This document shows, one piece after another, positions 18,378 to 50,424 of a stretch of DNA of 64,000 bases (positions within the stretch are counted from its first letter, which is position 1; every line of letters begins with the position of its first letter). Both the position numbers and the translations under genes were made by a program. The stretch comes from Candidatus Poribacteria bacterium. GTDB taxonomy: Bacteria > Poribacteria > WGA-4E > WGA-3G. Below the pieces are notes generated by a model. That model did no database searches. It was not told where the DNA came from and worked only from the letters and a program-made list of their open reading frames with translations. The stretch spans positions 44,398 to 108,397 of the forward strand of contig JAJDWA010000071.1 of assembly GCA_022825825.1 (NCBI GenBank). The letters are read 5' to 3'.

Positions 18378-18476
18378 GGTAGGTGCGATTTCCTAATCGC
18401 ACCCGATGGGTCTGGAAAATGGGTATGTCAGAATACGCGTCCGGTATTCTGAATTGGTTAGGAAACCGCACCTACC
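18378..18476. repeat. Palindromic intergenic repeat unit (99 bp)
   Basis: ggtaggtgcgatttcctaatcgcacc ... ggtatgtcagaatacgcgtccggtattctgaattggttaggaaaccgcacctacc; reverse complement matches the 48901 copy. Confidence 0.75.
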
Positions 18477-47678: not shown

Positions 47679-48716
47679 TTACAGGTCCAAATCACTCAGA
47701 TAATCTGCAATCTGCTTGGGTTGCCCATCAACTGTTGTTTCCATCGCAGCGATGACAAGAACAAAACTTTTGATATTGTCTTCAATCCGCGTATCTGAAG
47801 GTTCTCCACCTTCAAGCCAATTTAGAAACTCATCAAATAAATGGTGATGATGTTCATAGCGGACTGGGGGTGCTGCATAGACTTCCATTTCACTACCAAC
47901 ACGATGAATAACTATCTGGTTTCCACCTGCGATTTCGACCGTGCCTTGCTCAAATTCGGCTCGGTAATACTCGTGGTTCCAGCAGTATTCCATGCCAGCT
48001 GCCGAACTGTTCCCTTCATAAGAGGAATGAACACCGTTGTCCATCCGCATGAGATAGAAACCGCTGGAGTAGTGCTTAAAACTTGACCATTCCGGATTCC
48101 AGCCGAACCCGATCAGGATTTCGCAATCGCCGCCAGAGAGAAACCGAAGCATGTCCAAGTGATGAACAGAACCTTCAATGAGGAGTCCGAAATCCATATT
48201 GTGCCGCCACTCTCCCCACGCTGTATAACGACGAAAGTCACATCCATATCTACCGACAACGTATTGGAGCCCTCCCAATCTACCTTCATCACGGATACGA
48301 ATCAATTCTTGTTTATTATCCGCGTAACGATAGTTCTGGATAATAGCACACGGTAATCCGGTTTTCTGTGCTGTTCGTACCATTGCTTTCGCGGCACCCC
48401 AGGTATCAGCGATCGGTTTTTCGCAGATAACCGGCATGCCGTTTTCCATAGCAGCAATTGCAGCGGGATTATGGAATTTAGGTGGGATGGCAATCCCGCA
48501 AAAATCTGCTTTGACCGATGCGCACGCCTCGTTGAAGTCTATGAAACGTTGTGAGGTGCTGAGGCCCAATGCATCTCCTTGCGTCTTGAGAACATCTGTA
48601 TTCACGTCAGCTAAACCGACGATTTCAATTCGATCACTAAAATCGTTTGTGAAGATGCGGATCCAGTTCGCTGCCATACCACCTCCACCAATCATTAAAC
48701 ATGTGTGTTTTGCCAT
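47679..48716 (-). CDS. Gfo/Idh/MocA family oxidoreductase (paralog 1)
   Basis: CLMIGGGGMAANWIRIF; PVICEKPIADTWGAAKAM; highly similar to CDS 49384. Confidence 0.93.
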   Translation of the reverse strand: MAKHTCLMIGGGGMAANWIRIFTNDFSDRIEIVGLADVNTDVLKTQGDALGLSTSQRFIDFNEACASVKADFCGIAIPPKFHNPAAIAAMENGMPVICEKPIADTWGAAKAMVRTAQKTGLPCAIIQNYRYADNKQELIRIRDEGRLGGLQYVVGRYGCDFRRYTAWGEWRHNMDFGLLIEGSVHHLDMLRFLSGGDCEILIGFGWNPEWSSFKHYSSGFYLMRMDNGVHSSYEGNSSAAGMEYCWNHEYYRAEFEQGTVEIAGGNQIVIHRVGSEMEVYAAPPVRYEHHHHLFDEFLNWLEGGEPSDTRIEDNIKSFVLVIAAMETTVDGQPKQIADYLSDLDL

Positions 48717-48900: not shown

Positions 48901-48957
48901 GGTAGGTGCGGTTTCCTAACCAATTCAGAATACCAAACGCGTATTCTGACATACCCA
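48901..48957. repeat. Left part of the palindromic repeat interrupted by the nested element
   Basis: ggtaggtgcggtttcctaaccaattcagaataccaaacgcgtattctgacataccc matches reverse complement of the 18378-18476 unit. Confidence 0.75.
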
Positions 48958-48959
48958 TA

Positions 48960-49124
48960 GGCGTCAATTTAAGGAAAATGCAAGATTTTTTCTTGTAGGA
49001 GCGAGCTTTGCTCGCGACCTTTCGTCCGATGTCGCGAGCAAAGCTCGCTCGGACAGAAGAAAATCGGGCTTTGAAAACCCTCCCACAAGAAACAATCTGG
49101 TAATTATGTGCTTAAATTGACGCC
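48960..49124. mobile_element. 165-bp non-autonomous TIR element (MITE-like) with TA flanks
   Basis: GGCGTCAATTTAAG ... CTTAAATTGACGCC perfect 14-bp TIRs, TA on both sides; interior gtaggagcgagctttgctcgcgac / gtcgcgagcaaagctcgctc palindrome. Confidence 0.7.
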
Positions 49125-49259
49125 TATGGTGCGGTTTCCTAACCGCACCAGCCTTCGATCCTTATTACCTAATTTATTTATTAATCTTCATACAGATTGT
49201 GCTACATAGTGGCAACTTGGGTTTTTGTAGTCCAACCTAAAAATATGTGTGCATTTCCT

Positions 49260-49383: not shown

Positions 49384-50424
49384 TTAAAGGGACAGGTCAC
49401 TCAAATATTCCGCGATGTGTTTAGGTTGCCCATCAACTGTTGTCTCCATTGCAGCGATAACGAGAACAAAACTCTTGATATTGTCTTCAATCCGCGTATC
49501 TGATGGTTCTCCACCTTCAAGCCAATTTAGAAACTCATCAAACAGATGTTGATGTGCATAATACGGAATACCGGGAGCTTCATAAACCTCTTTCTCACCG
49601 CCAACACGATGGATCGTCATCTGGTTTCCACCTGCGATTTCAACTGCTCCTTGCTCAAATTCTGCGCGATAGTGTTCACCATTCCAACAATTGATGATAC
49701 CTGCTGCAGAACTGTTTCCTTCATAAGAGGTGTGAACCCCGTTATCCATCCGCATCAAATAGTATCCGCTTGAAAAATGCTTGAAACTTGACCATTCTGG
49801 ATTCCAACCGAATCCGACTAAGGTTTCACAATCGCCCCCAGAGAGGAAGCGGAGCATATCAAGGTGATGCACAGATGCTTCAAAAAGAAGGCTGAAATCC
49901 ATATCGTGACGCCAGTCCACACCCCACGAAAGATAGCGTCGATAATCACACGCGTATCTGCCAACAATGTGTTGTAGCCGTCCTAATCTGCCTTCCTCAC
50001 GGATACGGACCAATTCCTGTTTATTATTCGCATAGCGATAGTTTTGGATAATCGCACATGGTAACCCTGTTTTCTGTGATGTGCGTACCATTGCTTTCGC
50101 TGCGTCTAAGGTATCTGCGATCGGTTTTTCGCAGATGACCGGCATTCCATTTTCCATCGCTGCAACTGCTGCTGGGCTATGAAATTTAGGTGGGGTCGCC
50201 ACACCACAAAAATCTGCCTTGACCGATGCACACGCTTCGTTAAAATCTGTGAAAAGTTGTGAAGAACTCAGTCCTAATGCTTCACCTTGATTTTTAAGGA
50301 CATCTTCCTTTACATCTGCTAAACCGACAATCTCAACGCGGTCACTGAAATTACTTCTGAAGTTGTGAATCCAACCGCCAGCCATACCGCTGCCACCAAT
50401 CATCAAACATGTGTGTTTTGCCAT
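49384..50424 (-). CDS. Gfo/Idh/MocA family oxidoreductase (paralog 2)
   Basis: CLMIGGSGMAGGWIHNF; PVICEKPIADTLDAAKAM; near co-linear with CDS 47679. Confidence 0.93.
   Translation of the reverse strand: MAKHTCLMIGGSGMAGGWIHNFRSNFSDRVEIVGLADVKEDVLKNQGEALGLSSSQLFTDFNEACASVKADFCGVATPPKFHSPAAVAAMENGMPVICEKPIADTLDAAKAMVRTSQKTGLPCAIIQNYRYANNKQELVRIREEGRLGRLQHIVGRYACDYRRYLSWGVDWRHDMDFSLLFEASVHHLDMLRFLSGGDCETLVGFGWNPEWSSFKHFSSGYYLMRMDNGVHTSYEGNSSAAGIINCWNGEHYRAEFEQGAVEIAGGNQMTIHRVGGEKEVYEAPGIPYYAHQHLFDEFLNWLEGGEPSDTRIEDNIKSFVLVIAAMETTVDGQPKHIAEYLSDLSL

Follow-up and report, generated by a model that had tools for sequence, protein, structure and literature searches.

Among the defining traits of a transposase family is the length of its target duplication, which is usually fixed and is set by the hold of the transposase pair on the target. 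IS231A uses targets with the edges GGG-N5-CCC. The IS4 family is defined by a D(60-110)D(100-150)E spacing of the catalytic residues, a full Y(2)R(3)E(6)K (YREK) signature and 7-13 bp of duplicated target, close to one helical turn; its IS231 subgroup has the end consensus CAT-------AA--TAA--- and direct repeats of 10-12 bp (PMC2266710). IS1634/IS1549, which are IS4-related, are cited in that paper for atypically long duplications that vary from 8 to 514 bp. The IS4-family element ISRm22 of Sinorhizobium meliloti targets REP palindromes, with direct repeats of 6 bp at the axis of the palindrome (PMC1525189). In the IS481/IS1202 groups, duplications of 5-6, 15-17 and 24-29 bp are found, in steps of about one helical turn (PMC10045372). 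The element described here, from a sponge-symbiont Candidatus Poribacteria MAG, is very probably a MITE of an IS4-related insertion sequence (IS) of the same genome, with a target stagger of about two helical turns, a 19-20 bp duplication, hairpins as targets and a tendency to form arrays.

The window, a stretch of 64,000 bp, contains the element at positions 48956-49128. Aligned with its relatives, it is best drawn as CATAGGCGTCAATTTAAG...CTTAAATTGACGCCTATG, which gives 173 bp in the CAT...ATG convention. The left terminal inverted repeat, the 18-bp end CATAGGCGTCAATTTAAG (48956-48973, forward strand), is matched perfectly by the right one (49111-49128, reverse strand), and the perfect repeat measures 18-19 nt per side, the 19-nt form being CCATAGGCGTCAATTTAAG. 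The original prediction placed TA-GGCGTCAATTTAAG...CTTAAATTGACGCC-TA with perfect inverted repeats at 48958-49126; this arrangement is present, with a longer repeat than was stated. The ends fit the IS231-subgroup consensus. The interior (48990-49100) consists of two opposed REP-like palindromes, TTGTAGGAGCGAGCTTTGCTCGCGAC and GTCGCGAGCAAAGCTCGCTCGGACA, of a family that is also found outside the element, and has 42-nt arms. As a single strand, the element folds far better than shuffled sequences (z = -10). No transposase ORF was found inside it, and an Rfam search returned nothing credible, with one sub-threshold match. Short, devoid of a transposase ORF, present in many copies and sharing its ends with an autonomous IS of the same genome, the element is a MITE, and its nonautonomous nature had been correctly predicted.

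The genome was analysed as sequence stretches around matches. The 165-bp query had 61 matches, mostly to its positions 25-105, which correspond to the REP-like interior only. Siblings of the window element in the same genome are 93% identical over 137 bp (contig C35) and 91% identical (contig C66). When up to 3 mismatches are allowed, the genome contains 95 copies of the 16-nt end on one strand and 93 on the other, and the reversed control gives 29 and 32; this excess amounts to about sixty elements. Three further Poribacteria genomes with megabase contigs were searched for the 18-nt end with up to 2 mismatches, which was counted 98, 78 and 75 times, against one control match each. An intact autonomous IS with the ends of the window element lies in the same genome (C11:33886-35351); it is 1.47 kb long and carries a transposase ORF of 442 aa, and further copies of it appear as cut-off ends at contig edges. 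The original prediction had named other genomic copies and an autonomous IS with matching ends as things to look for, and both are found here.

The transposase of this IS matches PF01609 (DDE_Tnp_1, 6e-24) and the NCBIfam model transpos_IS4_1 (2.6e-59; 201 bits against a cut-off of 115). Its catalytic triad is D121, D193 and E327, with spacers of 71 and 133. A sequence search of the PDB returned nothing. For a relative at L091 (Poribacteria, OX638352.1; 84% identical), a confident AlphaFold model was obtained (pLDDT 86), whose best structural match in the PDB is the Tn5 transposase 1muh (E 2e-9). Judged by this model, the transposase of the lineage, a DDE enzyme, is predicted to fold most like Tn5 transposase. 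The ends and the duplication length common to the IS and the MITEs suggest that the MITEs are mobilised in trans by the autonomous IS.

Target duplications were counted flush from CAT...ATG in 170 candidate end pairs, which came from genomes of Poribacteria and of relatives, and lengths from 5 to 45 were scanned. Flush direct repeats of 20 bp were observed in 28 pairs, of 19 bp in 19 and of 17 bp in 2; the sole 9-bp repeat belongs to L108, a Chitinophagaceae relative, and no repeat of any other length within the scanned range was found. Within this lineage, IS and MITEs taken together, 47 of the 49 flush repeats are thus 19-20 bp long and two are 17 bp. Randomly re-paired flanks gave control means of 3.3, 0.6 and 0.04; these do not fall to zero, since one and the same hairpin recurs in many flanks. 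When only non-hairpin flanks were compared, a repeat was present in 21 of 84 pairs against 8 of 6972 cross-pairings. Duplications at unique sites include GTGAACTTTGACAGACACTC (L187), GGGTATTTCTTATAGGTCAC (L208) and GTGACTCTATATAAACAAC (L202) and, in the genome of the window itself, GTAAAGTTTTGGTTATACCC (L055); no empty site was found for L055, whose flanks are not syntenic in the genus. The duplication is 20 bp at L002 and 19 bp at L012, both same-genome siblings of the window element, 20 bp in the Chlorohelix relative and 19-21 bp in that of Herpetosiphon, and the Methylobacter relative has a 20-bp hairpin whose copies are inverted. A duplication of about 20 bp is roughly twice the length described for the IS4 family, and would reflect the activity and the target stagger of the enzyme. 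The assemblies are MAGs, and the main duplications come from those with megabase contigs. Many end pairs have no duplication, probably because ends were mispaired in nested elements or copies had recombined with each other.

The insertion at L192 has a counterpart without the element. It is 278 bp long, carries GGTTACAATTTAAAGTTAAC on both sides and separates two genes that have a conserved order within the genus. The orthologous loci of several sister genomes (e.g. G078, G054 and G082), with flanks up to 93% identical, have the target once and lack the element; the empty site is a single 20-bp target, with no TA insertion point. In the Herpetosiphon relative, removal of the IS together with one repeat copy restores a frame that is open over 446 codons or more and spans the junction. 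The window locus itself yielded no orthologous empty site, as its intergenic DNA is unconserved in relatives and the tandem gene pair around it is mostly absent; one sister genome has a different MITE at this locus, with its own target duplication (L266). Of the TA duplications and empty sites that had been predicted, the former are not observed and the latter are.

The tandem pair consists of duplicate genes at 47679-48716 and 49384-50424, which flank the element, encode proteins that are 82% identical and are probably Gfo/Idh/MocA-type oxidoreductase genes. Most of the same-genus genomes examined have one oxidoreductase copy here, and at least one (G018) has two adjacent copies. Elsewhere in the genome (G000), four Y1 transposase genes (PF01797) are found on contigs C51, C30, C13 and C65 (L362-L365), possibly RAYT-like partners of the REP-like palindromes.

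Measured against the definition of the IS4 family, the Poribacteria lineage has the DDE spacing (D-71-D-133-E) and a single-ORF IS4-type transposase (442 aa, transpos_IS4_1, Tn5 fold of the modelled relative). The R, E and K of the YREK signature are present and the Tyr is replaced, as it also is in Herpetosiphon; the Methylobacter and Chlorohelix relatives retain it. The duplication, sharp at 19-20 bp, is not of one helical turn. Since the Tyr has been lost and the duplication spans about two turns, we call the lineage IS4-related and do not regard it as a canonical member. The transposases of Chlorohelix, Herpetosiphon and Methylobacter share the long duplication, and the long-duplication transposases fall outside the clade of the 9-bp Bacteroidota and Bacillus-type (Priestia) elements (SH-aLRT 94, in a quick tree with long branches). 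The lineage resembles the IS231 subgroup in its ends, its size of about 1.45 kb or more, its single ORF, the D-71-D-133-E spacing and target edges of the GG...CC type, but differs from it in duplicating 19-20 bp rather than 10-12 bp and in the loss of the YREK Tyr in Poribacteria. The Chitinophagaceae IS4-related IS at L108 has a transposase that is 30% identical and ends, CATAGCCGTCAACTTAAG, that are almost identical, whereas its duplication, GTGAGACAC, is 9 bp and its YREK Tyr is in place. As with ISRm22, IS4-related elements are found in REP palindromes, but here the whole hairpin is duplicated instead of 6 bp at the palindrome axis. The long duplication recalls IS1634/IS1549, from which the lineage is set apart by a sharp length in place of a variable one. 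The nearest parallel is the one-turn step in duplication length among related IS481/IS1202 elements, although these are IS481-type and related to retroviral integrases, whereas the step described here, from about 10 to about 20 bp, occurs in a Tn5-fold lineage. No paper on an IS4 subgroup with long duplications was found among the open-access papers searched; ISfinder was outside this search, and a catalogued element may exist.

Twenty unique targets yield G-(G/T)-(G/T) at each edge when read inward, that is G-K-K...M-M-C. Palindromy was considered as a target requirement and ruled out, since the non-hairpin targets are self-complementary inside only at the level of shuffled sequences (p = 0.40). 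Hairpins of the GTGCGGTTAGGAAACCGCAC type nevertheless make up 20 of the 41 clean duplications, with only about 70-250 occurrences per genome, and are taken as targets far more often than their abundance suggests; part of this preference could reflect the survival of insertions in extragenic repeats. The duplicated stretch takes in the hairpin completely, so that every insertion leaves two of them. Insertion thereby multiplies hairpins and makes new targets, which explains the tandem arrays. At L204, the private variant GTGCGGTTAGGAAACCTCAC is present three times around two consecutive elements, and similar arrays at L186 and L095 consist of several MITEs, with the hairpin target repeated unchanged between them. 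The flanking copies of the hairpin target are inverted rather than direct at L095, L102, L318 and L321. An unusual mechanism was considered for these and set aside: there are few such cases, some of them belong to nested arrays, and they are consistent with recombination between copies, which is their likely cause. In other phyla, the IS4-related elements at L107, L111, L304 and L306 also appear to lie inside palindromes (their flanks are inverted), which suggests that hairpin targeting may predate the long duplication.

At the window locus, the right target copy is an intact 20-bp hairpin, GTGCGGTTTCCTAACCGCAC (49129-49148, forward strand), a sequence that other copies also have as their duplicated target of 19-20 bp. 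The first 16 nt of the left copy, GTGCGGTTTCCTAACC (48906-48921, forward strand), are identical to 49129-49144, and its last 4 nt (GCAC) are replaced by a 34-nt palindromic module, AATTCAGAATACCAAACGCGTATTCTGACATACC (48922-48955, forward strand). With its left copy altered in this way, the window element does not have a clean pair of target copies. Genome-wide, 43 copies of the module were counted; they adjoin many elements of different kinds, and the module is also part of a 99-nt repeat. In the form AATTCAGAATACCNNACGCGTATTCTGACATACC, it takes the place of one arm of the target hairpin, on the side facing the element, at 48922-48955 of the window and at L038, L134, L136 and L142; another insert is nested in its loop at L039 and L056. 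Both target copies at L038 have a private base in common and only one contains the module, so the module was added after the duplication there. At the window locus, the module probably altered the left copy after the insertion as well.

The 99-nt repeat at 18378-18476 (forward strand) forms a separate family that shares the same 58-nt half. It consists of two hairpins and an 18-nt spacer, and about 18 full copies are present in the genome, with 94-100% identity. The left flank of the element (48901-48957) had been likened to the reverse complement of this unit, and the two are indeed 97% identical over 58 nt. The unit goes on with TTTCCAGACCCATCGGGTGCGATTAGGAAATCGCACCTACC; the sequence found at the element is instead GTGCGGTTTCCTAACCGCACC, in which the loop is the opposite one and the spacer is missing. 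The unit is not resumed to the right of the element; it is therefore not an empty site, but contains the same hairpin parts in a different arrangement. The element does not interrupt the 99-nt unit, nor does the repeat at 18378 provide the partial empty site that the original prediction saw in it.

In our reading, the window element belongs to an IS4-related lineage whose target stagger spans two helical turns, and is one of its nonautonomous members. A Tn5-like DDE transposase would bind the CATAGGYGTCAATTTARG ends, excise the element and paste it into the target by staggered strand transfers spaced about two turns (19-20 bp) apart, not one, and repair of the gaps would duplicate these 19-20 bp. 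Targets would be picked mainly by their edges, G-(G/T)-(G/T)...(A/C)-(A/C)-C, which the hairpin GTGCGGTTAGGAAACCGCAC satisfies. Every insertion would convert one hairpin into two and thus place new targets alongside, leading to arrays of hairpin-separated elements. The window element would sit in such a hairpin, with its right copy intact and its left copy later altered by the 34-nt palindromic module.

The original prediction took the element for an IS630/Tc1-mariner-derived MITE that had entered the 18378-type repeat and duplicated a TA target. A TA does flank GGCGTCAATTTAAG on both sides, next to short perfect inverted repeats, but it is part of the longer conserved end CATAGG, outside which the flush 19-20 bp repeats begin; the TA is hence not a target duplication, and the family assignment is wrong. 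With a transposase of the IS4-related DDE_Tnp_1 type behind matching ends, the single 20-bp target at L192 and a right flank that does not resume the 18378 unit, we give this reading next to no credence. The flanking hairpins might instead belong to the mobile unit, and the 19-20 bp repeats would then not be target duplications. This would account for the same hairpin in 20 of 41 clean duplications and for the repeated hairpin-element units of the arrays. The other half of the duplications is locus-specific, however, with chance-level inner self-complementarity, each of L092, L094, L183 and L204 has its own hairpin variant on both sides of the element, and the empty site retains an unduplicated target. 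This reading is very improbable, and is refuted by unique-site duplications such as those at L187, L202, L208 and L192.

It is likewise highly improbable that the element is a large REP/BIME-type hairpin spread on single strands by a Y1 (RAYT-like) transposase, with coincidental IS4-like ends. The two REP-like palindromes of the interior, the strong folding of the whole strand and the four Y1_Tnp genes of the genome would all suit such a hairpin, but its ends are those of an autonomous DDE-type IS and also enclose dissimilar interiors. Moreover, target duplications of 19-20 bp are not known from RAYT or IS200/IS605 enzymes, and the siblings at L002 and L012 have them. Finally, the long duplications could be real but made after insertion by a cellular process such as hairpin-associated repair, rather than by the stagger of the enzyme. 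A hairpin target would presumably fold as a single strand in the gap; however, 19-20 bp are also duplicated at non-hairpin sites and in the Chloroflexota relatives (Chlorohelix and Herpetosiphon), and the length distribution is sharp, which makes this explanation improbable. The enzyme-set stagger of an IS4-related transposase is preferred over all of these.

On balance, we lean towards a distinct IS4-related family, spread over Poribacteria, Chloroflexota and Methylobacter, that has a Tn5 fold, joins its ends to the target two turns apart and prefers a whole REP-like hairpin, thereby multiplying hairpins and seeding nested MITE arrays. Together with its 9-bp relatives, whose ends are near-identical, a lineage that combines the Tn5 fold with a duplication sharply limited to 19-20 bp would form a natural pair for asking how the spacing of strand transfer is set, in parallel to the one-turn steps of the IS481/IS1202 groups (PMC10045372). 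Hairpin repeats, in turn, may multiply by a simple route, in which they are copied as target duplications.
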